Shown: positions 4,067-21,274 of the stretch, in pieces | Layout: each line of letters opens with the position of its first letter | Position numbering within the stretch: position 1 is the stretch's first letter | Source: Bacteroidales bacterium | GTDB taxonomy: Bacteria; Bacteroidota; Bacteroidia; Bacteroidales; P3 | Assembly: GCA_024400545.1 (NCBI GenBank) | Contig: JAKSMO010000020.1 | Coordinates: forward strand, 1-37,788 | Direction of reading: 5' to 3' | Length of the DNA stretch: 37,788 bases | Notes under the pieces: generated by a model | The model's database searches: none | The model's input: only the letters and a program-made list of their open reading frames with translations | Told to the model about the DNA's origin: nothing | Translations under genes and position numbers: made by a program

Positions 4067-4486
4067 AGCGTCATCACACCCGCACACAAACAACGCTCGA
4101 ACGAACCCCAAAGCAGGAATATCCGGAATGCCGTGCACTGAAAAAGTTGACTCTTTCAAACAGAGTTAATATGTTCAAGTATCACACAAAAGTAATGGAG
4201 AAGTATTACGACTTAGTGGTCAACATGTACCGTGCAGTCTGCTCGACACGTACAATTTTAACTTACTGTTGTATTGACTGATATGAGCTGAATCTGTGTA
4301 ACCGGACTGGCCATTAACTGATTCAGTCAGCAAGTTATCCAATGGCTATGAATCTTATAGCGAAGCGGCTGACACAGAGTTCTTTTTGATGAATTTGCTA
4401 ACTTTGTCCAGCTTGATGGGTTTTGGGGGGTACCCAAAGTGGTTCTGCCTGCCTTTTTGGGGGGGGCATCGGGCATCCTAGTTCTT
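4067..4486. other. Gap between convergent mfd and the IgGFc-like gene
   Basis: No gene is supported in these 420 bases. I see nested inverted repeats: GACTGA (4276-4281) with TCAGTC (4323-4328), and inside them CTGAATC (4288-4294) with GATTCAG (4320-4326). There is also a small ACTCT/AGAGT repeat near 4150. No hairpin followed by a T run is evident for either convergent gene. Confidence 0.5.
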
Positions 4487-6682
4487 CTATCTCAGCAGTG
4501 TGATGGCGCCGAATTTCTTCTGCAGGGCATCCGGTTCTGCTAAAGTGCGGTAGAGTATCAAATATACGTAGGCATCCTGCTTGCATGGGGAGCCATCTTT
4601 TGTGCCGTCCCACCATTCGGTCAGACCGTCAAATTCTGTTAAGAACATTCCCCATCTGTTGTATATTAGCACTTTGGCTTCTAGGATATTATAACATTTG
4701 GGCGCAAAGCGGTTGTTGGTTTCCAGCGAAGGTGTGAACACATTGGGCACCCAGATGGAGACATCGCCAGCGTTGCATGTTTTCACATTCACAAACAGAT
4801 TTTCTATGCTGTCGGCCCCATGGATGTTTGTGAAAGAAAGTCTAGCATAAAGATTGTCCATATCAAACCGTGCGCCGTGCCATTCGAGGGGGAGTGCAAA
4901 ATCGCATATTGTGGTGTCGTACGACATGCTATCGTTCTGCCACACGAAAAGGTGGTATGACTCGATGCTATCGCAGTGGTCGACAATGGTATAATGCTGA
5001 ATAAGGTCACCCTCCACTGCCTCATTATAGGTGTTTCCCTCATGAAAATGTGGAAGATTTGGCTCGGCTACAGTGTCGTGAACATCAAATAGATAGGTTG
5101 GATGAACCACGATACAGGTGCTCAGCGTGTCATATTTCAGGAGATTCTCTATCGTGTCGCTGATATATTCCACATTTACCACTAGGTCATATTGCCCGGG
5201 CTCTGCAAATGCATGCCTCAATGGATTGGTCTCGCCCAGTGGGCTGCCGTCGGCCAGCTGCCACTCGGTGCGTTCCACCCTGCCGCCGGGCTCCACCACG
5301 GCAATTTCCACAGAGTCGCCAACACACGACTGGGTGCAATCCTCTGTGTATTCGCCATTTACATGAAGTATGGGTTCTGTTAGGTTCTTTGCTGCAATAC
5401 CAACCGTATAGCCGTAGCTATCTCTAACCCCGGTGCCATAGGTGTAGGCAATAAATCCCTCTTGCGAATAGTCGATAATCGTATGCTTGCCCGAATTAAT
5501 CGACATCTGGGCATATCCATAGTCACTGTTGTTAGGCAGGGGTGAAAAATCGTTGGCGTGAGATACTCCGTCGATAGTGATGCTGCTTGCCGACGACATT
5601 TTGGCAACCACTGTAAGGTAATGATGTATGATATGTCCCTCAGTTACAGTGGGGAAGGAGATCCGCTCAATGGCTTGTTCCAAGGGTGGGATGGTGGTCA
5701 TGGATGGGTCGCCATAGAAGACTGCGTTGCGGCTGGCGAAATAGACATACGTCATGGCGGGCTTGCTTGTTACGATTTCATCCACAGCCGAGGGGGCGCT
5801 CATTTTGTATTCCCAAGTCTGACCGCTGTTCAGCACGGTTTGCAGGGAGTCGTTGATTCTGACCTCGCAGTTGTTTTCCTTGGATGTGATGCGCACATAG
5901 TCGCACAATGAAGTATTTGAGCCTACAACCACGAAATGCTTGCCCCAGTAGCAGGTGGGGGTTGCTTGTTCTACCACATGGTCACAGGAAAATAATCTGG
6001 AACCGTCAGGAACATACACACATGAGTTGCCATTGAACACGGCAATCCGCTTGCCGTCGCGAGCGTGGATTCGTGTGCCGGAGAGGTCGTCAAGATCAAT
6101 GCCTCGTATCTGGCACATCTGGCCTGCCTTTGGAATAGTGAGCGTATAGCTTTGGCCATCCTCAAACCCTTCAGCATTGCCCAACATATTGATGTCCACC
6201 ACAGTGCTATCCAATACGGCTACGATGGCAAACTCGCTGCTGTAGCGGTCCGGCGGATAGGTCTGCACCATATAATCGTCACGCAACAAGCGGGTTGGCA
6301 ATATATAGGTGAAGTCCATGCTAGGATTGCCTCGGGTCATTGCATACAGCGAAATGTCGGCTGTGCTGGTCACGTGGATGCCCTTGTTCACCATCACGCC
6401 AGACGATGTGGTGTGGGCCTCGCTCAGCGGCACCCACAGTCGGCAAATGGTGTTAGGCGACACATTGACGGTGCTGGACCACGAGGTGTTGGGGTTGGTG
6501 GCGGTCATGGAGCAAGAGATGGATGATGTGGCAAAAAGGCAGTACGACAAATCGCCCATGGCTGAGTCCTCGGCATCCATAAAGGCCACCCAGAAGTCGT
6601 CGCCTGTAGTATTTCTGACCTGGGCGAATGCGCTTGATGCCATCAGAGTTAGAATAGTGCACAAACATAATATTCTTTTCAT
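4487..6682 (-). CDS. Secreted IgGFc-binding-like protein with type B T9SS sorting domain
   Basis: A 731-aa exported protein. Residues 1-20 are a signal peptide ending ASSAFAQ. Roughly 25-420 resemble the IgGFc-binding N-terminal family of mucin/FcGBP-like adhesins: GDDFWVAF at the start, RDDYMVQTYPP near 130, then a segment with AVFNGNSCVYVP and CYWGKHFVVV. About 450-510 looks like a PKD domain (GQYDLVVNVEY). The last 85 or so residues form a gliding-motility-type C-terminal domain (VPNVFTPS near 645, IYNRWGMFL, WWDGTKDG, DAYVYLILYR). That is the type B T9SS signal, used for export across the outer membrane and retention at, or release from, the surface. No promoter was found in the 233-bp gap upstream, so it may be cotranscribed with the 245-aa gene. 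An adhesive role is inferred from the family. Confidence 0.92.
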   Translation of the reverse strand: MKRILCLCTILTLMASSAFAQVRNTTGDDFWVAFMDAEDSAMGDLSYCLFATSSISCSMTATNPNTSWSSTVNVSPNTICRLWVPLSEAHTTSSGVMVNKGIHVTSTADISLYAMTRGNPSMDFTYILPTRLLRDDYMVQTYPPDRYSSEFAIVAVLDSTVVDINMLGNAEGFEDGQSYTLTIPKAGQMCQIRGIDLDDLSGTRIHARDGKRIAVFNGNSCVYVPDGSRLFSCDHVVEQATPTCYWGKHFVVVGSNTSLCDYVRITSKENNCEVRINDSLQTVLNSGQTWEYKMSAPSAVDEIVTSKPAMTYVYFASRNAVFYGDPSMTTIPPLEQAIERISFPTVTEGHIIHHYLTVVAKMSSASSITIDGVSHANDFSPLPNNSDYGYAQMSINSGKHTIIDYSQEGFIAYTYGTGVRDSYGYTVGIAAKNLTEPILHVNGEYTEDCTQSCVGDSVEIAVVEPGGRVERTEWQLADGSPLGETNPLRHAFAEPGQYDLVVNVEYISDTIENLLKYDTLSTCIVVHPTYLFDVHDTVAEPNLPHFHEGNTYNEAVEGDLIQHYTIVDHCDSIESYHLFVWQNDSMSYDTTICDFALPLEWHGARFDMDNLYARLSFTNIHGADSIENLFVNVKTCNAGDVSIWVPNVFTPSLETNNRFAPKCYNILEAKVLIYNRWGMFLTEFDGLTEWWDGTKDGSPCKQDAYVYLILYRTLAEPDALQKKFGAITLLR

Positions 6683-8633: not shown

Positions 8634-11600
8634 TTAGCGGATGACGACTTTGATGGCAGGGCGACGGCCGATGGATACCATATATACTCCGGTATGGGGA
8701 AGGGGGTAGAAACGGCGGTCGATGCATTGGTCTTGGAAGATTATGCGGCCGGAAAGGTCGTAGATGGTGAGTTGCTGGCCTTGGGCTCCTTCAATGGCGA
8801 GGGCACCGCTGGCGGTAAGGATGCGGATGCCGTCGGCAAGAATGGCGTCGATGCCTTGGAGGAGTTCGAAGGTGGCGGTGAAGGTGGAGTCGCTGACAAG
8901 GGTGATGGTGCGGATGGATTCGGTGACGCCGTCGTTCCATTGTGCGAAGCGGTAGCCGCTCAGTGCGGTAGCTGTGAGGGTGACTTCGGTACCCTCGGCA
9001 TATTGGCCGCTACCGGTAACGGTGCCCATGGTTTCGTCGGCACTGAGGACGGTGAGGGTGAAGATGCGGAGGTCTTCGGCAAAGAGGGCCTGGTATTGGG
9101 CGTCGGCCTGCACGGTGATGAGTCGCATTTGGTTGGTATCGCCATCACTCCACTGCAGGAAGTGGTAGCCGTCAAAGGGGGTGGCGGTGAGGGTGACCTG
9201 CTGGCCGTAGGGGTAGCTTCCACTGCCAGTAACGGTGCCCATGGTTTCGTCGGCAGAGGTGGCGGAGATGAGGAAGGTGTCGATGGCGAAGCTGGCGGTG
9301 AGGGTGGTGTCGCCAGATACTATCAGGGTACGGGGGTTGAGGGTGATACCATCGGTCCACATGACGAAATGGTGATGTTCGGCAGCCAAGGCAGCAAGGG
9401 TGGCAGTAGCACCAAGCATATAGCAGCCGCTACCAGTAACGGTGCCCATGGAGGTGTCGGCACTGAGTGCGCTTACGGTGTAGGTGAGTCGAACATTGAT
9501 GGAGGTCCAGCCCTCGGGAAGGTCGGCACCGCAGAGTGAGGCTACCGAAAGGGTGTGGATAGCGGTGGGGTTGAGGCCGGTGATGGTGTGGCTATTGGAT
9601 GCAACGGTATCGGTGATGCCGTTATAACGTACGAGCCACAAGGGACTTTCGCCAGTCCAGGTGAGAGTGACGGTGGAGTCGTTGAGGACTGTGGCAGTAA
9701 GGCTGTCGGCTATGGGTGCGGTGCTGCTGACGCAGACAACATTGAGGGCGAAACCATCGCGGACACCACTACCATCGGTATGGAAGATTACTTTAAGGAA
9801 GCCGCTTGGTGAGGTGTAGTCGATGGAGGCGTTGCCGCAATAACGATAGTCGTAGGCACCGGTTTCGCTGCTATAGAGGTAGAGGTAGTCGTAATTGTTT
9901 TCGGTTACGATGTCGCCATAGATGCGGAACGAAGAACAACCATTGGGGGAGATGAAAACGACTGTGTCGTTGCGGCTGTTGGAGTACTGACCGTTGAGGC
10001 CGCCATTGTCGGTGAGGATGGTGTTGCAAGAGGTGATGGTATCGTTGCCATCCATCACATGGAGGCCTGCAGCAACGAGGAATGGGCCGACCCAAGGACT
10101 GGTAGAACTACCGCAGACGGCGCGGAGATAGATGTCGGTAAGGCCATTGGGAATGGTGAGGGAGCAGGTGTCGGCGAGGATGCCGCTAATGAGTGTGAGG
10201 CTGTCGGTGCTGCAGCCGGATGTGCCATAACCCACTTGGAATGAATCGCCAGAGGGTGCATTCCAACTAAGGCTGGCGGTGTTTTCATTGATTGAAACAG
10301 ATACGTTGCGAGGCACTTTGCATGTGGGTGCCAGGGTGACGCTGATATTGTCGAGGTAGGAATTATAAAGGTAGGAGTTGCTCATCTGCACATGGCGGAA
10401 AGCGATGTGGAGGGCGTTGGCCGGGAGGTTGGTGTCGAGACTGAAGTCGTGTTCGTAATGAGTGGCTTGGTTAATGCGAGGAAGCGACTCGATAAGGACG
10501 AAGGTGGTAGTGTCGGCGGGGTCGCTCATGACGCCGATCTGCAGCATGCCGTTGGCGGTGCTGTACTGGCGGTAGTCGAAGCTGAGCTGGAGTTGCGCTA
10601 CGGGGGTGTCGAATACGGGAAGCACGGCCAGGCAGGGTTTGGTTGTTGAATAACCATGGAGCGAGAGGTAGGGGGTGGCATCCATAGCATAGGACGAGTA
10701 GGTGGTGACGAAAGCTTGAGGAGTATTAGTGCTGGTTGAGCCGCCGGTAATATGGAGACTGGGGAACTGCCAGCAGCTGGGCTGAGGATAGTTGCCATTG
10801 ATAACGGTCATATAATAGCCGCTAGTGGCAGCACCTTGGACGCTGTTGAAATCCTCGGAATAGGGGAGGGCGATGGCTGCAGGACAATTGGTGCGGCAGT
10901 TGATGGTGAGCGCATCGGCAGTGTCGCTGGCAGAGCAAAGGGCTTGAACTGAGAATTGGTAGCTGGTGTTGGGGGTGAGGCCGGTAACCGTGAAGGGGGA
11001 TGCATTGGCCACAAGGGTGGTGGCGGCAGCATCGCCATCGGCTGCATAGGTGACAATCCAAGCGGAGGCTGTGCCTACCTCATCCCAAGAGAGGATGATG
11101 GAATCGGAACCAGCGGCTTGGGCTGAGAGATTTTGAATGGCGCGGCAATTGGGCGCATTCTGGAGGGCGACGTTGTCGACATATATCCAGCTGTAGGTGG
11201 GTTTGGTGCCGGCAACAGGCATGTCGAGAGAGTCGATGGGGAGGTCCATGAGGGCAATATATTGGCCGGAACCAGCATAGTTGTCGAAGTATACTTCGGC
11301 ATGGAGGGTGGTATTAAGATTGGCGATAGTGATGGTGTCGACGGGCACGAAGGTGGCGGTGTCGGAAGGATTGGACATAACACCTACAATCATTCGGCTG
11401 ACGTAGCGTTCGGGGTAAGATGTGGAGGAACTGTAGCTTCTCATGTCGAAGCTGAGCATCAGGTTGGAAATGACGCCAGCGTATTGCGGCAGGGCAGCAT
11501 AGCTATAGAACTGTGTGCCGGTGATGCTCGAAGGCTGGTAGGCATAGAAGTAGAGGCAGGTGGTTCCGTCGCCATTGGTGGAGCTATAAGGATAGGGGTA

Positions 11601-13076
11601 TGCAGTAGAAGAGTTGGTGCCGCGATGCCAGCATTGGCTAATCTGCGAGATTGAACCTGTGTTATAGCTATTGAAGTTTTCGAGATAAGGAAGGTCGTCG
11701 GCGGTGAGGGCTACGCATGGGGTGATGAACTGGAACGTGGCTGCATTGCTGGTGTCGTCGGAACCGCAGATGGATCGGATGGTGATTGTGTACTCGGTAT
11801 TAGGAGTGAGCCCGTTGAGGGTGAGGGTGTCGGAACTGACTGCCAACTCGGTGCTGCCACCGATGGAAGGGCTGAAAGTGAGCATCCATTGATGAACGGT
11901 AGGAGCTGATTGCCACGAAAGGTGGGCAGCATAGGGGGTGAGATTGCTGAGACTGATGCTGTCGGGACGCAGGCAAGGAATGATGCCGAGGGTGTCGATG
12001 CTGAGCATGATGTTGGGACGCTGATTGGAGCTAGTGCCAGTGCGGGTGGCGGCACCAGCCAGGGTGCCAGCAGTAGCATCGTTGTCGTCCTGGGTGTAGA
12101 AGGCTGAGTTGGTGGCAGAGGTGTAGGCGTACTGTTGATTCAGTGAATAGTTGGCGCCTTGGCGACATACAGCAACAAGGAGATTTTCGGTGCCATTGTA
12201 GTAGTAAGGAGTGTTGAGCACAAAGGGCTGCCAGCCGGAAAGGGTGTCGAGGGAGCCGTTGGTGCTGGAATACACGGGTGTCACTTCGGAAAGGAGCGAC
12301 CAAGAGCCGACCTCGGTTTGGCTAGTGGAGCCGAGGTACATGTTGAGGCTCGTGTAAGCAAGGCCGCTACCAGCCTGCTTGTAGAACCAGAGCGTATCGA
12401 TGACACCGGAAACTCCGATTTCGCTAGCGGGATAGAGTTGGAGCGAGGTGCCGTTGTTGTAGTAGCTGCAGAAAGGGGGCTGGGCAGCAGCCGCGGTACC
12501 GTTGCCCACGACTACGCGGGTGTAGCCTGTGGCAGCGGGACTATTGGGATTGGTGGCAGCGATGGCGCTGGAGAGATTCCAGGTGCAAGTGGCACTCATC
12601 TCGAGGAAGTCGCCATTAGATACGGATTGAGAGCCATAGCCGCCAGCCCACGAACCATTGACATAGTAGCACCACCAGTTGGTGCTGGAGGCTAGATTGA
12701 GAGCGTCGTCGTGGTATTCGACAAATCCAATCATGCCACCAGAGAACTGGTAAGAGAAGCGAGAGTCGTAGGTGGCAATAGAATCGATGAGATCGATGGC
12801 CACAGCGCTGCCAGACCAACGGACGCCCCAAGCGAGGGCTACCTCGTCGCTGGAATCGTCCCAGCCGACCACGATGATGGCGCTATTGGAGCCTGAGCCG
12901 CACCAGAATTGAATGTCGGAGGCGCTGAATGTCATTTTTGCGCCATTTAGCGTTTGATTGTAGATGCCTAGCTGTGCCTTGTCGGGGTCGCCATAGCGGG
13001 TGTTGTTGGTGTTTTGTGCGAAGAGGGTGCTGATGAACATCAGCGCGGTGCACAGAGTTAGGAGTTTTTTTGCCAT
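8634..13076 (-). CDS. Giant T9SS surface protein (Fn3, adhesin, CUB, InlB repeats) downstream of a cobalamin riboswitch
   Basis: A 1480-aa exported protein. I start it at 13076, where MAKKLLTLC begins a signal peptide ending STLFAQ; the frame is open for 35 more codons upstream without one. The order is: a Trp/Gly-rich N-terminal domain of unknown family (about 30-180, with FWCGSGSNSAIIVVGW), fibronectin III (about 366-450), a cleaved-adhesin/MAM-like domain (about 460-640), Fn3 (640-727), a second adhesin-like domain (738-915), Fn3 (917-1000), a CUB-like domain (about 1010-1113), Fn3 (1117-1190), three InlB B-type repeats (1195-1398, each with MGTVTGSG), and a type A T9SS tail (about 1410-1480, IYDLSGRIIF, GVYMVSI). 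It should be attached to the cell surface. The riboswitch 216 bases upstream predicts repression by cobalamin. Ligand binding is inference. Confidence 0.93.
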   Translation of the reverse strand: MAKKLLTLCTALMFISTLFAQNTNNTRYGDPDKAQLGIYNQTLNGAKMTFSASDIQFWCGSGSNSAIIVVGWDDSSDEVALAWGVRWSGSAVAIDLIDSIATYDSRFSYQFSGGMIGFVEYHDDALNLASSTNWWCYYVNGSWAGGYGSQSVSNGDFLEMSATCTWNLSSAIAATNPNSPAATGYTRVVVGNGTAAAAQPPFCSYYNNGTSLQLYPASEIGVSGVIDTLWFYKQAGSGLAYTSLNMYLGSTSQTEVGSWSLLSEVTPVYSSTNGSLDTLSGWQPFVLNTPYYYNGTENLLVAVCRQGANYSLNQQYAYTSATNSAFYTQDDNDATAGTLAGAATRTGTSSNQRPNIMLSIDTLGIIPCLRPDSISLSNLTPYAAHLSWQSAPTVHQWMLTFSPSIGGSTELAVSSDTLTLNGLTPNTEYTITIRSICGSDDTSNAATFQFITPCVALTADDLPYLENFNSYNTGSISQISQCWHRGTNSSTAYPYPYSSTNGDGTTCLYFYAYQPSSITGTQFYSYAALPQYAGVISNLMLSFDMRSYSSSTSYPERYVSRMIVGVMSNPSDTATFVPVDTITIANLNTTLHAEVYFDNYAGSGQYIALMDLPIDSLDMPVAGTKPTYSWIYVDNVALQNAPNCRAIQNLSAQAAGSDSIILSWDEVGTASAWIVTYAADGDAAATTLVANASPFTVTGLTPNTSYQFSVQALCSASDTADALTINCRTNCPAAIALPYSEDFNSVQGAATSGYYMTVINGNYPQPSCWQFPSLHITGGSTSTNTPQAFVTTYSSYAMDATPYLSLHGYSTTKPCLAVLPVFDTPVAQLQLSFDYRQYSTANGMLQIGVMSDPADTTTFVLIESLPRINQATHYEHDFSLDTNLPANALHIAFRHVQMSNSYLYNSYLDNISVTLAPTCKVPRNVSVSINENTASLSWNAPSGDSFQVGYGTSGCSTDSLTLISGILADTCSLTIPNGLTDIYLRAVCGSSTSPWVGPFLVAAGLHVMDGNDTITSCNTILTDNGGLNGQYSNSRNDTVVFISPNGCSSFRIYGDIVTENNYDYLYLYSSETGAYDYRYCGNASIDYTSPSGFLKVIFHTDGSGVRDGFALNVVCVSSTAPIADSLTATVLNDSTVTLTWTGESPLWLVRYNGITDTVASNSHTITGLNPTAIHTLSVASLCGADLPEGWTSINVRLTYTVSALSADTSMGTVTGSGCYMLGATATLAALAAEHHHFVMWTDGITLNPRTLIVSGDTTLTASFAIDTFLISATSADETMGTVTGSGSYPYGQQVTLTATPFDGYHFLQWSDGDTNQMRLITVQADAQYQALFAEDLRIFTLTVLSADETMGTVTGSGQYAEGTEVTLTATALSGYRFAQWNDGVTESIRTITLVSDSTFTATFELLQGIDAILADGIRILTASGALAIEGAQGQQLTIYDLSGRIIFQDQCIDRRFYPLPHTGVYMVSIGRRPAIKVVIR
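9017..9460 (-). repeat. Three DNA-level direct repeats inside the InlB-repeat region
   Basis: A 24-base element beginning TAACGGTGCCCATGG occurs at 9017-9040 and 9230-9253, with a diverged copy at 9437-9460, spaced 213 and 207 bases apart. Each encodes the core MGTVTGSG of an InlB B-type repeat. The near identity at DNA level suggests fairly recent duplication or conversion. Confidence 0.8.
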
Positions 13077-13292
13077 AGTTTTGAAAACTATTACTTTTTT
13101 TTGATGTCGATGGCAACGAAATATGGGTGCCATTGGCGGGTTAAACAATAGCTTTCGGGGCAGAAAAAATACGTGGAGCAAATAGGCGCAGCAAGCCTAC
13201 GACATGGATCGGCGAGCCACAACAACCATGGCCAACAGAAAGGTTGGTCTTGGCGAATATCTCCTGCTTTTTCCTCGAAAGCGTTCAATAAC

Positions 13293-13491
13293 AATCGATT
13301 TGGCAGGTCTTCTGACTTTGCTCGCCTTTCTTCGGAGCCTTCCCACGCGACTATGGCGCCGAGCAGTGGCATTATGATGGAAGAAGGTTTGGTAAAATGA
13401 GCTTACAGCTGCGGGACAGTTCGGGAATTTCACCCGATTCCCATTTTCATGCTAATTACGCTAAATGAATATTTTTGAATGAAATACGATT
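13293..13491 (-). promoter_or_regulatory. Cobalamin riboswitch
   Basis: Read on the minus strand it shows the conserved parts of the Cobalamin family in order. There is a GGGAA...GGTGAAATTCCC segment (about 13445-13423), then CTGTCCCGCAGCTGTAA (about 13418-13402). GCCACTG follows near 13370 and GGGAAGGC near 13344. Last is the B12 box AGTCAGAAGACCTGCC (13317-13302). A closing P1 stem can form between about 13482-13491 and 13293-13301. It faces the 1480-aa surface protein gene, whose start lies 216 bases downstream with no other gene between. The family normally lowers expression when cobalamin is bound. No T-tailed terminator is obvious in the leader, so control may act on translation. Confidence 0.93.
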
Positions 13492-13526: not shown

Positions 13527-13534
13527 CAAAAGTA
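13527..13534 (-). promoter_or_regulatory. -7 element of riboswitch promoter
   Basis: On the minus strand TACTTTTG (13534-13527) matches TAnnTTTG. It would start the transcript near 13520, about 30 bases before the riboswitch. A clear -33 element is not seen. Confidence 0.55.
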
Positions 13535-13785
13535 CGAAGATTTTTTGAATTGACGAAATTTTCTCATCAATTCATTAAGGATGGAGAATAAAGCATAGGC
13601 TCCTCAAACAAGTTTGTTTGGTTTATCAACTATCGAGAAGAAATGGCCTGTTGGCTGGGAGGATGCTATATCCTATCGGTTGCTATTAAATATTTGGTGG
13701 GTGGAAGATAATATAATGATACTACGGAGAATATTCGTTATATCCCCCGTAGTGTCGATGAGTATGCAACGTAGGTATGTGCAGG
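13535..13785. other. Gap between riboswitch promoter and cohesin-like gene
   Basis: No gene is supported. The only structure I see is a small palindrome, CAAACAA (13605-13611) with TTGTTTG (13614-13620), which has no T run on the minus strand. It is at best a weak candidate end for the cohesin-like transcript. Confidence 0.4.
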
Positions 13786-16700
13786 CTACATTATCTTTGT
13801 TAGTCGCTTTACGTGTGAGCCGTTGGGGGTGGAAATGACGAGGAAATAGGTGCCTGCGGGCAAGTCGGAAGTGGAAAACTGGTGTTTTATGGCGCCATTG
13901 AGTATGTGGTGCTGGAGTTGGTGTCCGGAAACATCGTAGAGTTGGAGCGATAGCATGGGAAGTGATGAAGTGAGGGTGACATGATTGGTGGCTGGATTGG
14001 GGTAAAGCAGCATGGCCGTTGGGTCGGCTTCGGCAATGCCTTCGCTGTTGATGGTGAGATGCAGAGTGATGGTGGAGTCGCATCCATAGGATGTGGTTCC
14101 ATACCAGGTGTAGGAGCCCGATGCGGTGTAGGTGTCGCCTTGCCAAGTATAGCTGTTGGAGGAGGTGGCTATGATGGTGTCGGCTGAGGAGTAGTGCACC
14201 GTGAGATGGAGGGTGATGACAGAGTCGCAGCCGGCTGCATTGGTCAAAAGGTGGGTGGCGATTGTGTCGGAGAAGGTATAGAGATTGCCATCAATCCAGC
14301 GGAGGCTGTCGCAGACTTCGTGGAAATCGGTGGCTGCGGTAGTATATCGGATGGTGAGGTTGAGGGTGACAACGGAATCGCAACCATAGATGGAAGTGAG
14401 TTGCTGTTTGGCGGTGTCGACGGAAGTGGTATAAGTAATGCCGTTAGACCAGGTGTATGTATCGCATGCCGACTGGATGTCGAGGGTGTCGTGAGAAGGA
14501 TGGATGAAAAGTTGTAGTCCGATAAGGGAATCGCAGCCGACGGAGTTGATAAGCGTGTCGGCATCGATGGTAGAGGCAGTATAGGTGTTGCCATTCCAGA
14601 TGAAGGAGTCGCAGGCAGAATAGGTTTCGAAATTATTGGTAGAGTACTTGAGGTGAAGATGAAGGGTGATGAGAGAGTCGCAACCAGAGTTGTTGATGAG
14701 GTGATGTGTGATGGTGTCGGACGGGAAGGTGTGAGTGGTGCCGAACCAGGTGTAGGCATCACAGGCAGTATCGTAAATGCTGGAGGAAGAAGAATGGCGC
14801 ACCGTAAGATGGAGCGTGATAAGCGAGTCGCACCCTACGCTATTAACGAGATGGTGGGTAGCGGAAGTGTTGCTAAGGGTATAGAGGTTGCCATCAATCC
14901 AGCGGAGCGAATCGCATAGATTGTAGCTGTCGGTGCCAGCGGTGGAATAATGGATGGTGAGCTGGAGCGATACGGTGGAGTCGCAGCCTACGGAGTTGAG
15001 GGTGTGGTAGGTGGCAGTAGTGGAGGCTGTGTAGATGGAGTCGTGCCAAAAATAGGAGTCGCAGGTGGTGTGGGCAAGCGCGGTGGCGGAAGTGGGTAGG
15101 ATGGAAAGATGGAGGACATGTAGGGTGTCGCGTCGATAACCAGGCGCAAGATGAGAATAAGTGCCTCCGGCAGAGAGTGTATCGGCGAAGAAAGTGAAGT
15201 GTTGGTCGGGACAGATATTCTGATAAATATGGAGGGTGTCGATAGGGTTGGGTACTACAACAATATCAGAATAGCCGTTAAGTATGGATAGCCTATTTTG
15301 GCCTTGCTCATCTGACAGGATGACTTGCGAAACGCTGAAGCTATGGGAGCCGAAGTCGATAGAATCTGAAGGCCGAAGCAGGGCGGAGAGAAGTGTGCCT
15401 GAGGCGCCATTGAGAGGCTGATTGCTGAGAGACACAAGAATGACACGAGTGACAGAATCGTTGACTCTGGCAGTGGTGAGATAATGGCTATTGCTGCGGG
15501 AATTAGTGGCAAAATGGTCGAGAATGTAATGGTGATGGGGGTAGATGAAGTCGAATTGAACGGCTGTGATGGGGGTATAGTTTTCGAGGGAGAACTGGAC
15601 CAATGCACTATCAACACGCAACAGAGTGTCGGGTGTGATGAGGGTGAAGATATTAGGAGTGAAGCGAGTGACTGAAATCGTAACATTGAATATAGTGTGA
15701 ACAGAGTCGTTGCTGTAGATCTTCATGGTGGAGGAATAGGTACCCTCGTTGTTTTGGTTATAGGCAAGGTGTAGTGGGGAAGATTGGCCAGGGGCTACGG
15801 TGATAGGGAGTGAGTCGAGAAGTGAGAAGTCGTTGTGTAGAAATAGGACTCTGGTGATGATGAGGGGAAGGGTGCCGCTGTTGACTACTTGGTAGGTGGC
15901 TCTGGCAGGACTGGTGATAGGAATACTGCCCATATCGAAAACCGAAAGGGAGCTGTCGATATCGGGTCCGTCAACAGTTACAATGCCGCTATAACTATCG
16001 GAAACAACGTTGGCAGCAGTACTGTCGGCAAGGACGGTGTTGACAAGCGGGATGGAAAAGTCGCCATGCCCGCCAAGGACGACTTCGAAACTGCATAATG
16101 CGCTATCGTTGCCAAGGAAAGGCAGGTTGGCAAGGCTGAAAGCAATAAGGGAGAGGGTGTCGGCACGAACAGTTGCCGAAGTGATATGGCCTTGGGTACG
16201 GCTGCTCTCGACCCGAAAACTGCCGGGGACATAATGAAAGTATGGCGGAAGAATTATTTGGGTCTGTAGGCCGACGATGGGGGTCATGTTGTTCATGCCG
16301 ATGAAAAGACGGGCGATGCTATCGGTTTGGCCAGCGGCATTGAAAAGATGAAGCTCGTTAACGGCGTAAGGGGTAGCGGTGATGGTGATGATGCTGTCGC
16401 CAGCAGGGGCGTTGGAGTGGATAGTGGCAGTGGCAGTAAATGGACCAGGAACAGTTGGGGTGAAACGTATGGTAAAGGTGCTGGTGTTGCCAGCATAGAT
16501 AGTAACATCGTGACGTGTACAGGAGAGTGTGGTATCGGAGAATGTAATATTGGAGATTACGAGCGTTCGATTGCCGGCATTGCGAATAGTAAGGTTGGCG
16601 GTGTTTTGGGTAAGGAGGGGACAACGGCCAAAATTGAGTGTGGTGTTGGCTGCAATGCGAGGCGCATAAATGGTTATGGTGCCAGAAGATGTGGAATTGG

Positions 16701-17112
16701 TGAGGAGGGTGCTATCGGGGGCATAGAGGGCAGCATTGCGTAGGTAGGTAGTGACCACGCCTGAGGTGTTGCCAAGTACAAGCTGAAAGGTAAGGAGGGC
16801 ACCGGAGGAACCAAGGAGCGCATGGGGGGAGGCTGCTTGGACGTGGAGTGAATCTCCGGAAACGTATGCTGAGAGGGTGTGCCCGTTGGTGCGGGTCCCA
16901 TTCATCTGGCAGGAACCGGCGACAAAGCTATAGCGTCCGGCAAGGGGAATGCTAAAATGAAATGAAGCTACAGAGTCGGTGTTGGATAAGGATATAGTGA
17001 CGGTGACGGTGCTGCCCGCATTGCCAGATGTGGATCCTAACGATAAGGTGTTAGCTGCACGGACTGAGATGCTCAGAAAGAAAATGGCAGTGAATAAAAA
17101 GATCTTTTTCAT
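13786..17112 (-). CDS. Secreted protein with three cohesin-like domains, Cys-repeat array and T9SS tail
   Basis: A 1108-aa exported protein with signal peptide 1-19 (FLSISVRA). Three cohesin-like modules alternate with Ig-like ASH/HYDIN-type modules: cohesin-like 22-150 (LSLGSTSGNAGSTVTVTISL), ASH-like 153-248, cohesin-like 250-380, ASH-like 383-485, cohesin-like 488-620. Seven repeats of about 49 residues follow (about 680-1022), with the pattern CDS.xW...GCDSxxTLxLT; the last has lost its first Cys. A type A T9SS tail ends the protein (about 1028-1108, LLYPNPATNHVTL, YDVSG, LPAGTYFLVI). The start lies 13 bp after the stop of the protease gene, so the two should form one operon. Cohesins bind dockerins in cellulosomes, and the protease carries a dockerin-like domain. 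I am sure the gene is real, but less sure that the cohesin-like modules bind dockerin rather than acting as structural beta-sandwiches. Confidence 0.93.
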   Translation of the reverse strand: MKKIFLFTAIFFLSISVRAANTLSLGSTSGNAGSTVTVTISLSNTDSVASFHFSIPLAGRYSFVAGSCQMNGTRTNGHTLSAYVSGDSLHVQAASPHALLGSSGALLTFQLVLGNTSGVVTTYLRNAALYAPDSTLLTNSTSSGTITIYAPRIAANTTLNFGRCPLLTQNTANLTIRNAGNRTLVISNITFSDTTLSCTRHDVTIYAGNTSTFTIRFTPTVPGPFTATATIHSNAPAGDSIITITATPYAVNELHLFNAAGQTDSIARLFIGMNNMTPIVGLQTQIILPPYFHYVPGSFRVESSRTQGHITSATVRADTLSLIAFSLANLPFLGNDSALCSFEVVLGGHGDFSIPLVNTVLADSTAANVVSDSYSGIVTVDGPDIDSSLSVFDMGSIPITSPARATYQVVNSGTLPLIITRVLFLHNDFSLLDSLPITVAPGQSSPLHLAYNQNNEGTYSSTMKIYSNDSVHTIFNVTISVTRFTPNIFTLITPDTLLRVDSALVQFSLENYTPITAVQFDFIYPHHHYILDHFATNSRSNSHYLTTARVNDSVTRVILVSLSNQPLNGASGTLLSALLRPSDSIDFGSHSFSVSQVILSDEQGQNRLSILNGYSDIVVVPNPIDTLHIYQNICPDQHFTFFADTLSAGGTYSHLAPGYRRDTLHVLHLSILPTSATALAHTTCDSYFWHDSIYTASTTATYHTLNSVGCDSTVSLQLTIHYSTAGTDSYNLCDSLRWIDGNLYTLSNTSATHHLVNSVGCDSLITLHLTVRHSSSSSIYDTACDAYTWFGTTHTFPSDTITHHLINNSGCDSLITLHLHLKYSTNNFETYSACDSFIWNGNTYTASTIDADTLINSVGCDSLIGLQLFIHPSHDTLDIQSACDTYTWSNGITYTTSVDTAKQQLTSIYGCDSVVTLNLTIRYTTAATDFHEVCDSLRWIDGNLYTFSDTIATHLLTNAAGCDSVITLHLTVHYSSADTIIATSSNSYTWQGDTYTASGSYTWYGTTSYGCDSTITLHLTINSEGIAEADPTAMLLYPNPATNHVTLTSSLPMLSLQLYDVSGHQLQHHILNGAIKHQFSTSDLPAGTYFLVISTPNGSHVKRLTKIM
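14045..15070 (-). repeat. Seven tandem Cys-Asp-Ser repeats (coding)
   Basis: Seven units of about 147 bases encode the CDS...W...GCDS repeats of the cohesin-like protein. Units 2 and 6 share CDSLRWIDGNLYT and an identical 19-base DNA block (14285-14303 and 14888-14906), four units apart. This points to block duplication or gene conversion within the array. Confidence 0.85.
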
Positions 17113-17125
17113 GGCTTGGCGTGTT

Positions 17126-20100
17126 TTAGTTTAATACGACCTTGGTAGTGTGGGAAGTGATGCCGTTGACGGATAGGGTGACAAAATAGATGCCACGAGG
17201 AAGAGTAGCGGGCTGCCAGGTATAGCTGTATTGTCCAGGTTGTGGGGTACTAATAGTGTTGGTGTGAATGGTTCGACCCATGCAGTCGGTGAAAGTGAGG
17301 GTGGCATAGTGTGGATGACTGTTGCCGATAGAAAAATCAATGTTCACTTGATTGTTGGCAGGATTTGGATAGAGACGCATGATCTGGGCTGGTGCTGAAA
17401 CTATATCGGTGATACCTTGCATCTGAGCGTTAAGGGCTACAACATTGTGGCCATGAATATCAGAAAGAACCAGCTGAAGGGGCTGGCGGTTGCCTACAGC
17501 CAGAATGGGGGTTGTGCCAGCTGGGATAGTGCGTCCGCTGAAGCTGTAAGCAAGCAGGAGCAAACCACCTTTGGCGGTGGGGGCAGAAATGATTTCAAAA
17601 CCTTTGAGGGCCGAGAGCGCTTGAATGTCGGCAGCTGAAGCATCAGCAAAATAGAATTGGAATCCGGCTAGGTCAACAGGAGAATCGATATAGATAGTGC
17701 CGTCCCGTAAGGTATATGTGGCATTGAGTTGGGGGGCGGCAGACTTGGCTGAGGAATCGCCATATAGGATGATGTTGATGATGCCGACAATATCGAGAAT
17801 GTCGATGTTGTTGTCGTAGTTCACGTCTGCTTGGTTGAAGATGAATGGTTGTGGATTCTGGAAGGTCATGTAGTTGATTGTGGTGATAACGTCGGCTACA
17901 TCAACTGTATTGTTGCCGTTGGCATCGCCCAAGAGGGAGCTTAGAGGCGTAGCTGCTGCAACGGAAGATGGGGCTACTTCGGTAAAGGAGGTGTTGACGG
18001 TTTTGTAGTAATAGAAGTATCGTGTGCCTGAAGTTACAGCATAGTCGGTATAGGAGGTGTCGTGCAGGGGTGAAGTGTTGAGTCGGATAGAAGCAGTTGG
18101 AAGACTGTCGGCTTCATAGGTGTATCGATAGAGGTTATAGCCGAAAAGATCAGGTAATTGGCTGGAATTATTAGGCCAAGAAAGATTGACTTGGCCGATT
18201 CCGGCAGTGGCAACAAGCCCAGAGGCCAAGGAGCCGGAGAGTTGGATGGGAACATTGAAACGTAAGTATTCGTCAGGAATCTCGAAGTGCTCGTTGTCAC
18301 GAGCTTGGGTGACTGCTATGCGGTAGGTGCCGTCAATGTCTTCGTGGCCGGAGAGGGTGAGGTGGACGGTGAATGCGGTGCTATCGGAACTCCAAAAGGG
18401 GGATTGGGAAACAAAAATATCTTTGTAGGGATTGTCGATGCCTAAAGTAACGGTTGGAGCGATGGAAGTATCCATGGCCCGATTGAAATAAATTTTGAAT
18501 TCATGAGTGCCGATGCCGAGGGGAGCGATGGAATCAAATTGATCTTGTGCGTCGAATCCGTTGACTTCTACTTTCCATACAATGCCGTGGGCTTCGGCTA
18601 CCGGGCGCTGGGCTACATTGCCTAGGTCTAGTCGGAAGAAAGAGGTTGACGTGGGGTAGTCGGAATCCCAAATTTTTGCACGGAGGATTTCCTCGTTTGT
18701 AGAGCCGAGATAGAGATTACCTAATATGGTATGGTTTGCTGGCGTGTTGCTGGGAAGGTAGATATTGTAGGTGCTAAGTGTATTGAAGATATTGTTGTTG
18801 TGGAAGATGGGCGAGGTGAAGTATCGGCCGTAGGTGCCAGAAGAGAGTGAATAATTGGAGGAGTTGTTGCGGTTGAGGCAGAAGTTATTGTATTGCATGG
18901 CAGGATGAGCTGCAGCACCAGTACCGTAATAGGTAATAGTAGTGCCATTGGTGGATTCTTGATGAGAGAGAAGGTTGTAGTTAATGGTTCCTCGATTGTT
19001 GTAAATATTGCAGTAATAAAGATCAAGGTAGTTGAGGTAGTTGGTGGGGTAGTAATTGTTGCGGAAGATGCAGTTGAGCATTACGGCATGGGTTCCGCCA
19101 GTAGTGCCAGAACTAGTTTGTACTGCACCATTGTACATGTTTTCGATAATGCAGTATGAGAAGGTGTCCAAGGGGGAGAGGTACATGCCGTACCAACCAT
19201 TATTGCTGTTGGTAGAAGAGGTAAAGGTGATGATGCTGTCAGGTGTGCCCATGGCTTTGATTTGGCCAGAGCATGATAGGTTGATGCCGTCGTTGATGCG
19301 AATGGTGGTTCCGGGCATAATAACTAGGCTGGCATTGACGGTGATACCAAGGCTACGGGTGAGTTGGTATTGGTGGGTGGGCCAAAGAGTATCGTGGGTA
19401 TATATAAGGCCTCCAAGTTTGACAACGTTAGCAATTTCCATGTCAATGGGCTGGCGCAAGGTATCGGAATTAGGGGCTGCTGCGCATAGAGTAAGGTGCA
19501 GTTGGCGACCGTTGGTGGTGGATGGACTAACGGTGAACTCAATGGGGTTGATGGACTGGCGAACTTCGAAAGGGGAAAGTGGTTGGCCAAATAAGGTATG
19601 ATTGCTGTGGAAGAGGATTGAGGCTGAATCTTCGCCAGGTTGGAATTCGAGCCACGTGACAATAGAGTCGATAGTTCCACCGAGAGTCCGGAGTGACGGA
19701 TAAAATTGGATACGTTCTCCAGCATCGGCATAAGCTGAACTGTCGCCATAAAGGGTGTCGTTGATTAGGTAGGATGCCAGTTGAAGTTCGGTTTGGTTGG
19801 TGGAGCTGTTGAAAAGGTTCATGAAGTTGATGGACTCGTGAGGTTGAGATAGATTGATGAGGTTGGCAATAAGGTCGTGGTTGGAGGCGAAGTGGCGACG
19901 GTCCATTAGGGCGGTTATTCCTCCGGCTACTAAAGGACATGCCATGGAGGTTCCGCTATAGGATTGATATTGGCCACCAGGGATGGTGCTGAGAATGTCG
20001 GTTCCAGGAGCAGAAATTTCGTAATTGTATAGTTGGTTTGGGGAGAATTGGGAGTAGTTTGGCCCGTCGCAGTCGAAGTTGGAATAGGGAGCAAGATGTC

Positions 20101-21274
20101 CGTGATTAGAGGATGCCTGCTGGGTGGCTTGTACGCCTAATACAAAAGAAAATGCTGCGGGAAAACAAGGACGTGCCATCGGATCGCACCGGGTATCTAA
20201 GGGAAGGGCGTCGTTGCCAGCAGCAGCAACAATAATGCTATTTTGGAATGCTGATGAAAGTGCTTGTTCGAGAGCGGAAGAATAAGAATAGGTTCCAAGG
20301 GAAATAGAAATGACATCGGCATGATTTTGTGCAGCGTAGTTGATACCTTGAATGAGGGTGGAAACGGGACAACTGCCGTCGCTTTGCGCCACGGTTACCG
20401 GCATGATGAGGGCATCGGGGTTGGCTCCAGAAATACCGATACCATTGTTGGCCGAGGCAGCTGCAATACCAGCGCAGTGAGTGCCGTGGTGGTTGTAATC
20501 ATAGGTGGCTGCGGTATGTCGGACGAAGTCCCATCCGTGAATATCATCACGGAAGCCGTTGTTATCGTCATCTTGGCGTGGTGCCCCGGAGAGTTCGGCA
20601 TAGTTGGTCCAAATATTGTTGGATAGGTCGGCGTGTGTGATGTCAATGCCGGCATCGAGGATGGCAATGATCCGGCGTAAGTTGCTGTCGAGTTTGGGCT
20701 GGAGGAAAAGGCTGTCTAGTCGAGTAGCGGAAATACCCCACTGAAGCGATTGAAGAGGATCTTGCACAAGCGTGTTTTTGATGGTAGGCTTTCCCAGAGT
20801 GTGGCAGAGATAATTAGGCTCGGCATAGTCAACTCCTTGTGTCTTGGCCAAATCCTGAGAAAGCTGGATTGTTGCGAGTGGGTCGGTACCATCGAGAGTG
20901 ATGAGGTAAAGCTGAGATAGGTCGTGTTCTACAATCCTCCTGCCGCAATAGCTGAAAGAGGTTCGCGGTTGGGGTTCGAATACAAACTGAGGACATAGCT
21001 GCTCGATGGATATGATGCCGTATCGGCTTAGAATCGTATTTACTGAATCAGCCTCAGGAGCATTGTTGAGAAAACGCAGGAAATTGTCGTCTTTGGAAAG
21101 CTGAAGAATTGACCGATCGGCCAATTTGAAGATTAGTTGGTTGGGTACGGATTCGTATCTTGAATCTGCACCCAGGGCTTTGGGGGGATGAGTATTGGTG
21201 AAGGATTGCGCCAATAGAGTCTGAGGCACAAGAATGAGTAGTGCTAGGATTTGGGATAGAAAGAATTTATTCAT
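17126..21274 (-). CDS. Secreted subtilisin-like serine protease with dockerin-like domain and T9SS tail
   Basis: A 1382-aa exported S8 peptidase. A signal peptide (1-22, LLAQ) and a propeptide-like region (to about 180) precede the catalytic domain. The catalytic triad is visible as Asp207 (ILDAGID), His263 (HGTHCAG) and Ser443 (SGTSMACP), with oxyanion Asn354 (AAAGND), so it should be active. A parallel beta-helix-like region follows (about 615-830), then an Fn3-like domain (about 1020-1105). A dockerin-like pair of calcium loops comes next (about 1112-1171: DANGNNTVDVAD and DVNYDNNIDILD). After it are a short cohesin-like beta domain (about 1178-1290) and a type A T9SS tail (about 1300-1382, LYPNPANNQVNI, LPRGIYFVTL). 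It has its own strong promoter and is the first gene of an operon with the cohesin-like gene. The likely role is surface or extracellular proteolysis; the substrate is unknown. Confidence 0.96.
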   Translation of the reverse strand: MNKFFLSQILALLILVPQTLLAQSFTNTHPPKALGADSRYESVPNQLIFKLADRSILQLSKDDNFLRFLNNAPEADSVNTILSRYGIISIEQLCPQFVFEPQPRTSFSYCGRRIVEHDLSQLYLITLDGTDPLATIQLSQDLAKTQGVDYAEPNYLCHTLGKPTIKNTLVQDPLQSLQWGISATRLDSLFLQPKLDSNLRRIIAILDAGIDITHADLSNNIWTNYAELSGAPRQDDDNNGFRDDIHGWDFVRHTAATYDYNHHGTHCAGIAAASANNGIGISGANPDALIMPVTVAQSDGSCPVSTLIQGINYAAQNHADVISISLGTYSYSSALEQALSSAFQNSIIVAAAGNDALPLDTRCDPMARPCFPAAFSFVLGVQATQQASSNHGHLAPYSNFDCDGPNYSQFSPNQLYNYEISAPGTDILSTIPGGQYQSYSGTSMACPLVAGGITALMDRRHFASNHDLIANLINLSQPHESINFMNLFNSSTNQTELQLASYLINDTLYGDSSAYADAGERIQFYPSLRTLGGTIDSIVTWLEFQPGEDSASILFHSNHTLFGQPLSPFEVRQSINPIEFTVSPSTTNGRQLHLTLCAAAPNSDTLRQPIDMEIANVVKLGGLIYTHDTLWPTHQYQLTRSLGITVNASLVIMPGTTIRINDGINLSCSGQIKAMGTPDSIITFTSSTNSNNGWYGMYLSPLDTFSYCIIENMYNGAVQTSSGTTGGTHAVMLNCIFRNNYYPTNYLNYLDLYYCNIYNNRGTINYNLLSHQESTNGTTITYYGTGAAAHPAMQYNNFCLNRNNSSNYSLSSGTYGRYFTSPIFHNNNIFNTLSTYNIYLPSNTPANHTILGNLYLGSTNEEILRAKIWDSDYPTSTSFFRLDLGNVAQRPVAEAHGIVWKVEVNGFDAQDQFDSIAPLGIGTHEFKIYFNRAMDTSIAPTVTLGIDNPYKDIFVSQSPFWSSDSTAFTVHLTLSGHEDIDGTYRIAVTQARDNEHFEIPDEYLRFNVPIQLSGSLASGLVATAGIGQVNLSWPNNSSQLPDLFGYNLYRYTYEADSLPTASIRLNTSPLHDTSYTDYAVTSGTRYFYYYKTVNTSFTEVAPSSVAAATPLSSLLGDANGNNTVDVADVITTINYMTFQNPQPFIFNQADVNYDNNIDILDIVGIINIILYGDSSAKSAAPQLNATYTLRDGTIYIDSPVDLAGFQFYFADASAADIQALSALKGFEIISAPTAKGGLLLLAYSFSGRTIPAGTTPILAVGNRQPLQLVLSDIHGHNVVALNAQMQGITDIVSAPAQIMRLYPNPANNQVNIDFSIGNSHPHYATLTFTDCMGRTIHTNTISTPQPGQYSYTWQPATLPRGIYFVTLSVNGITSHTTKVVLN

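Follow-up and report, generated by a model that had tools for sequence, protein, structure and literature searches.

A cobalamin riboswitch linked to a DUF4430-related domain in Bacteroidota points to a predicted exported protein for corrinoid capture

The window analysed here is a stretch of 37,788 nucleotides from a Bacteroidales bacterium of the gut (assembly GCA_024400545.1, contig JAKSMO010000020.1). On its minus strand, Rfam model RF00174 matched at 13480..13285 with 80.6 bits against a gathering threshold of 31.5 (E 1.7e-18), and the match to this cobalamin riboswitch aptamer covered the full length of the model (1-189). The first-pass annotation had placed the conserved core at 13293-13491; the cmsearch that it proposed found the riboswitch on the minus strand with the span displaced by about 10 nt at either end, while the B12 box AGTCAGAAGACCTGCC lies exactly where it had been read, at 13302..13317 (-). 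Upstream of the aptamer, at 13527..13558 (-), is a candidate promoter in which TTTC is followed after 20 nt by TACTTTTG, fitting TAnnTTTG, which we take to be the Bacteroidota-type consensus, and the same letters occur in genome G020. The position of this candidate upstream of the aptamer means that riboswitch and gene are probably one unit. No gene was seen between the aptamer and the ATG at 13076, as the annotation had stated, and the coding sequence that begins there (8634..13076, minus strand) opens with a signal-peptide-like stretch and encodes P0001, a predicted secreted multi-domain protein of 1480 aa. From the promoter region through aptamer and leader into the N-terminal coding part, 975 of 981 nt (99.4%) are identical in G020. 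Paired cobalamin riboswitches were observed elsewhere: G030:C83 (L152) carries two RF00174 matches in tandem (867-1084 and 1608-1824, about 520 nt apart) upstream of a 1735-aa homologue, possibly a sharper or two-step switch, and divergent pairs separated by less than 200 nt occur in G014:C3 (60325-60515 on the minus and 60697-60888 on the plus strand) and in G009:C1 (252439-252629 on the minus and 252748-252947 on the plus strand).

P0001 had been described from its sequence as an Fn3/adhesin/CUB/InlB-repeat protein with a T9SS tail. The Fn3 and InlB parts of that architecture are firm, with four Fn3 stretches (PF00041, E 7.5e-26) and three InlB-type repeats (PF18998, E 6.4e-31). Two of the Fn3 stretches, aa 371-444, matched to fibronectin, and aa 646-717, the best Pfam Fn3 match, lie with the spacer between them at 10926..11966 (-), and the top-scoring InlB-type repeat (aa 1343-1404) lies at 8865..9050 (-). 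The CUB-like stretch (aa 1058-1112; 9741..9905, minus strand) is weak, with an E-value of 0.44 that falls under the cut-off, and the T9SS-like C-terminal sorting tail (aa 1411-1479; 8640..8846, minus strand) is also just under the cut-off for DUF6383 (23.5 bits against 23.7) and further under it for TIGR04183 (13.3 against 23). At the N-terminus, a signal peptide was read at aa 1-21 (13014..13076, minus strand), with no lipobox. The family scan of P0001 listed no known B12-binding domain, no DUF5074 or DUF4465 and no alpha-barrel family. A search of the protein against the PDB gave 93 matches at E up to 1, and the 60 of these 93 that were listed are all of Fn3 type. The homologue in G030, which also carries Fn3 and InlB modules behind RF00174, aligns with P0001 in two long stretches at 43-46% identity. 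Further T9SS-tailed proteins are encoded beside the gene, at 13786-21274 and 4487-6682 (-): a repeat protein of 1108 aa, a subtilase and a protein of IgGFc-binding type that ends in a CHU_C tail.

Homologue and linkage searches drew attention to a part of P0001 that was missing from the earlier architecture, a domain of about 115 aa at aa 47-160 (12597..12938, minus strand), which is the conserved riboswitch-linked part of the protein and, from its relation to DUF4430, a likely corrinoid-binding one. This domain matched all 37 genomes of the same genus, among them the source genome, and, elsewhere in the order, 3 of 24 genomes, often in tandem copies, and in a phylum-wide sample it was present at E <= 1e-5 in 8 of 395 genomes, again including its own. 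Relatives are encoded by 222 stretches of named genome contigs, and the best 80 of the 222 gave 79 loci with 294 domain copies in 86 ORFs, up to six per ORF, from uncultured Bacteroidales or Bacteroidota, many of them from the ruminant gut where an origin is stated. One of these loci, L080, has domain copies spread across four overlapping open frames (4383-6533), as would result from gene decay or from faulty assembly.

DUF4430 (PF14478) was the sole Pfam family common to many copies of the domain, found in 12 of 28 and in 32 of 105 copies at E up to 10, with a best match of E 2e-10 among the 105. When ten copies were scanned singly, one (L113:2598-2954) passed the 23.8-bit cut-off with 33.5 bits, two others scored 18.6 and 16.5, and seven were unlisted; the copy that passed is a full-length homologue of the window domain (hhalign against alignment A3, E 1.8e-44). 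A single comparison of a canonical DUF4430 protein with the A3 profile aligned 33 columns at a probability of 78 and E 1.8e-5. The copy in P0001 itself scored 13.9 bits, under the gathering cut-off. The DUF4430 matches seen span just the last 30-50 residues of the domain, the C-terminal part that holds the common motif (Y)W.Y.VNG...NGD, and the N-terminal part (DIQFWCGSGSN...ALAWGVRW) lies outside them. On these results we regard the domain as a distant relative of DUF4430 and not as a member of it. DUF4430 itself is rare in the phylum, at 1 of 296 genomes at E <= 0.001. Domain profiles gave nothing convincing against the PDB, the matches including 3u7z (E 0.46) and a light-harvesting chain that is unrelated (E 1.2), and a single-copy search gave unconvincing matches only; a BtuH-type chain was absent from the domain-profile matches and from the 60 of 93 P0001 matches listed, which is an indirect look at that relationship. 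Four NCBIfam families each appeared in one of 28 copies and were taken as chance.

The linkage between domain and riboswitch was examined by comparing domain matches with RF00174 matches in 40 genomes, where same-strand matches were merged into a cluster if separated by less than 5 kb; one of the 54 resulting clusters, in G007, covers two genes with the riboswitch between them. RF00174 lay upstream on the same strand within 1 kb of 34 of the 54 clusters (median 240 nt) and within 6 kb of 41, or, counted by genome, in 30 of 40 within 1 kb and 37 of 40 within 6 kb. With sites scattered at random over genomes taken as 2.45 Mb each, about 0.03 clusters would be expected at the 1-kb distance. The pairing that the first-pass annotation had suggested looking for in related genomes is thus kept. 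Among the remaining 13 clusters, five run into the end of their contig within 400 nt; the other eight have enough sequence around them to count as unlinked, and a search of these surroundings at E 0.1 still gave no cobalamin match. Five of these eight have a common N-terminus (MQKFLR or MLKFLR) and reach the domain only after more than 1,270 aa of the frame, and the other three differ from this type or could not be judged. With eight of 54 clusters lacking a riboswitch nearby, the link between domain and B12 is not a strict one. Two stretches with such unlinked giants contain SAM-II riboswitches (L141, 509-568, minus strand; L148, 6212-6271, plus strand). In the 79 contig loci, which overlap the 40 genomes, a B12-box motif used as proxy for the riboswitch was found within 1 kb upstream of 61 of 86 ORFs and within 6 kb of 75; this proxy is conservative, since it missed L073 and L079, where RF00174 was found (G008:C47 and G023:C22).

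The surroundings of the domain show the same association. In other Bacteroidota families, RF00174 was present in seven of eight neighbourhoods (from seven genomes), and the eighth, L133, ends at a contig end. The operon of L131, which was scanned, consists of a TonB receptor, a DUF5074 lipoprotein, another lipoprotein, and a protein in which the domain is joined to a DUF5074 propeller and a Por_Secre_tail. By reading, L127, L129 and L132 resemble it, L130 is without the receptor and L133 has the last two genes only. L134 resembles the L131 operon in part, with receptor-like and lipoprotein genes, and its domain protein is an exception in being lipoprotein-like. In L128 a single 373-aa protein, which carries a tail and two copies of the domain, stands behind the riboswitch, and in L054 a DUF5074 (BtuG-type) lipoprotein gene comes between the riboswitch motif and the domain gene. 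In L099 (5473-10901), genes read as an anaerobic ribonucleotide reductase and its activase come after a domain gene and share its strand, as if all stood under one predicted cobalamin riboswitch.

P0001 had been proposed to be either a corrinoid scavenger or an adhesin, and the composition of its relatives bears on this choice. As an adhesin, the protein would be made under riboswitch control at low corrinoid and would attach to neighbour cells, host or feed particles, with the N-terminal domain as an adhesive module, a reading that fits the Fn3 and InlB-type repeats and weak CUB-like stretch of P0001, the Fn3 stretches in two scanned linked relatives (L071, and L152, which has InlB as well) and the occurrence of the domain in eight clusters without a riboswitch. 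Against it, six of the eight linked relatives scanned with Pfam (L049, L091, L128, L131, L134 and L153) have no Fn3 or InlB models, the 652-aa protein of L153 showing domain copies and a tail only, so that the riboswitch seems to track the N-terminal domain and not the adhesive body. In L131, moreover, the domain is fused to DUF5074 and stands behind a TonB receptor and a DUF5074 lipoprotein. We therefore consider an adhesin quite unlikely and favour the scavenger, for which the DUF4430-related domain would be the operative part.

Proteins with this domain appear to be built for export. Of the 81 ORFs complete at the C-terminus, 74 have a T9SS-like tail by a crude pattern, and of the 82 complete at the N-terminus, 79 have a signal-like start, a few starts seemingly being misplaced; none of the 79 ORFs with such a start had a lipobox by a similarly crude pattern. 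PF18962 exceeded its cut-off in six of the eight scanned linked relatives (L049, L071, L091, L128, L131 and L153), and did not in the lipoprotein-like L134 or in L152, which reached 20.6 bits with DUF6383, also under cut-off. The source genome encodes a PorU-type T9SS sortase (NF033707, 930 bits). We infer that P0001 is likewise exported via T9SS. Taken with the linkage, the signal sequence without lipobox, the tails of the relatives and the sortase give good comparative-genomic support to the earlier prediction of a non-lipoprotein surface factor made when corrinoid is low.

The source genome has four RF00174 sites. Two precede genes read as TonB-receptor-like, followed by surface-lipoprotein genes, and the one regulon lipoprotein that was scanned is a DUF5074 protein, a BtuG-type propeller (45.5 bits). 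The third precedes genes read as anaerobic ribonucleotide reductase, which is a B12-independent enzyme, and the fourth is that of the P0001 gene. The CobJ/CbiH marker of corrin-ring synthesis was not found in this genome, nor was MetH, sought as a sign of B12 need, and a B12-binding domain was found in two of its ORFs. The genome is a draft with estimated completeness of 96.34% and contamination of 8.27%, which makes the gene absences provisional.

The leader between aptamer and start codon contains elements from which a switch could be built. Directly 3′ of the aptamer, at 13266..13282 (-), is a P13-like hairpin GCTTTCGAGGAAAAAGC. Of the 60 leaders extracted from the 86 ORFs, 49 contain its core CTTTCGAGGA with no more than one mismatch; its loop GGAA could pair with UUCC of L5 in a predicted loop-loop contact. 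Pairing scores and folds further indicate a start-codon hairpin with a 5′ arm GAAAGCTATTGTTT at 13143-13156 (-) and a 3′ arm AAGTAATAGTTTTC at 13083..13096 (-) that ends 6 nt before the ATG. The start of the 5′ arm, CGAAAGC at 13151-13157 (13143..13157 for arm and alternative-pairing start together), can alternatively pair with GCTTTCG at 13276-13282, the proposed ON form. In the window, the start hairpin has 14 paired positions including G:T and scored 25.5 against 15.6 in shuffles, and the alternative pairing with the P13 strand scored 18 against 12.3, with 0 of 60 shuffles as good in either case. Over 40 non-redundant leaders, drawn from 52 in the length range and including that of the window, mean scores were 17.9 against 14.5 for the start hairpin and 15.8 against 12.5 for the alternative pairing, and only 13 and 17 of the 40, respectively, reached p <= 0.05 singly. 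Computed folding of the whole leader gave the start hairpin and no aptamer, and folding with the aptamer omitted gave the alternative helix; in overall stability the two folds do not exceed shuffles (z -1.26 for the whole leader, -0.79 without the aptamer).

Covariation was found in a group of leaders that excludes that of the window. An inner pair of the start hairpin is C:G in 14, T:A in 10 and T:G in 1, with no mismatch among the 25 leaders counted of 28 in the group, giving 24 Watson-Crick pairs against 12.8 when one side is reshuffled (0 of 10000 as good, uncorrected for kinship). Sequence changes in the alternative helix, ATCGGT:ACCGAT, likewise leave most of its pairing intact. For one group, RNAalifold on whole leaders recovered the alternative helix, and for the other it recovered P13; the start hairpin is missing from its output because of inserts in the leaders. 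A start hairpin that covaries and an alternative helix that varies while mostly staying paired favour translational control. Premature termination has been proposed for cobalamin riboswitches of B. thetaiotaomicron in the available text of PMC12751083, and transcription attenuation acting on the same protein, a rival for the mechanism only and independent of the other readings, would find a candidate in the weak terminator-like hairpin at 13187-13201. The T tract of this hairpin is poor, however, and the scan gave two terminator-like sites in the region against 0.9 expected, while in one leader group the covarying hairpin finishes just before the start codon. Attenuation is thus unlikely in our estimate, but not negligibly so. 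Another hairpin, noticed by eye behind the upstream gene at 13722-13752, is absent from the terminator scan list.

On balance, we consider it reasonably probable that P0001 is a surface protein that captures corrinoid and that its translation is under the control of the cobalamin riboswitch. When corrinoid in the cell is low, the post-aptamer GCTTTCG would pair with the 5′ arm of the start hairpin, leaving the start codon free, and P0001 would be made; with corrinoid bound, the aptamer and P13 hairpin would form, and the 5′ arm would pair with the stretch before the ATG and turn translation off. The protein would then leave the cell by Sec and T9SS and remain on the surface or in the medium, where the DUF4430-related domain may catch corrinoid for the TonB-receptor and BtuG-type systems behind other cobalamin riboswitches of the genome, with the Fn3/InlB body as stalk or anchor.

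That the domain itself binds corrinoid is suggested by its distant kinship with DUF4430. Transcobalamin-type carriers hold corrinoid between an alpha-barrel and a beta domain. According to the excerpted text of PMC4350170, DUF4430 sits in the C-terminal region of vertebrate B12 carriers of this type, a placement that suits a binder, as do the array-like copies of the domain. The domain family shares with DUF4430 the C-terminal part and the motif, and one relative exceeds the Pfam cut-off, whereas the window copy differs from the transcobalamin type in falling under the cut-off, in its extra N-terminal part and in having no alpha-barrel partner listed. All of the linkage evidence would fit equally well if P0001 were an accessory of corrinoid acquisition that does not bind corrinoid, either as a scaffold for BtuB/BtuG or by freeing corrinoids from carriers or dead cells, and BtuL, encoded in such a locus of B. 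thetaiotaomicron, did not bind cobalamin in the part of PMC12751083 that concerns it. Given the kinship and the arrays, we rate such a non-binding role as quite improbable.

Capture by P0001 would have parallels in known systems. BtuG, BtuH and BtuJ of Bacteroides are described in excerpts of PMC6143338, PMC8941943, PMC12751083 and PMC13398666 as surface lipoproteins that catch corrinoid for BtuB, and P0001 is predicted to resemble them as a surface protein for corrinoid capture under a cobalamin riboswitch. They are lipoproteins in B. thetaiotaomicron, whereas P0001 has neither DUF5074 or DUF4465 nor a lipobox and carries a T9SS-like tail. With T9SS type A cargo that has Fn3 or InlB modules it shares the signal peptide, modular repeats and C-terminal tail, and it differs from the known cargo in standing behind a cobalamin riboswitch; we know of no type A cargo so placed, and none was found in the literature searched on B12 or corrinoid together with type IX secretion. 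The DUF5074-T9SS operon proteins (L131 by scan; L127, L129, L130, L132 and L133 by reading) have the same N-terminal domain and T9SS tail around a DUF5074 propeller, in contrast to the Fn3/InlB body of P0001. No description of the domain family was found in literature on cobalamin riboswitches, DUF4430, DUF5074, transcobalamin and T9SS, a search that covered subscription journals thinly, so that an earlier description is possible. In the available text of PMC7160235, a hypothetical protein of Porphyromonas that is given no name has a cobalamin riboswitch in front of it, and the text of PMC2211319 mentions unnamed B12-regulated hypothetical proteins; these could be related to the domain family.

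Competition for B12 shapes gut communities. The pairing of riboswitch and P0001, kept in relatives, suggests a part in an undescribed surface capture of scarce B12. As a broader and more tentative reading, to which we give a little less than even weight, Bacteroidota may own a transcobalamin-like corrinoid-binding domain, exported by T9SS and carried singly or in tandem on giant riboswitch-controlled proteins as a second layer of B12 harvesting beside the Btu lipoproteins, and, as part of the same joint reading, this domain may be distantly kin to the C-terminal domain of animal B12 carriers. If this is true, a T9SS-exported and often multi-domain family under the same riboswitch would introduce a new route of export and a new domain with a likely binding role, and it would provide a function for part of DUF4430-like sequence space as well as a test of kinship with the animal B12 carriers.
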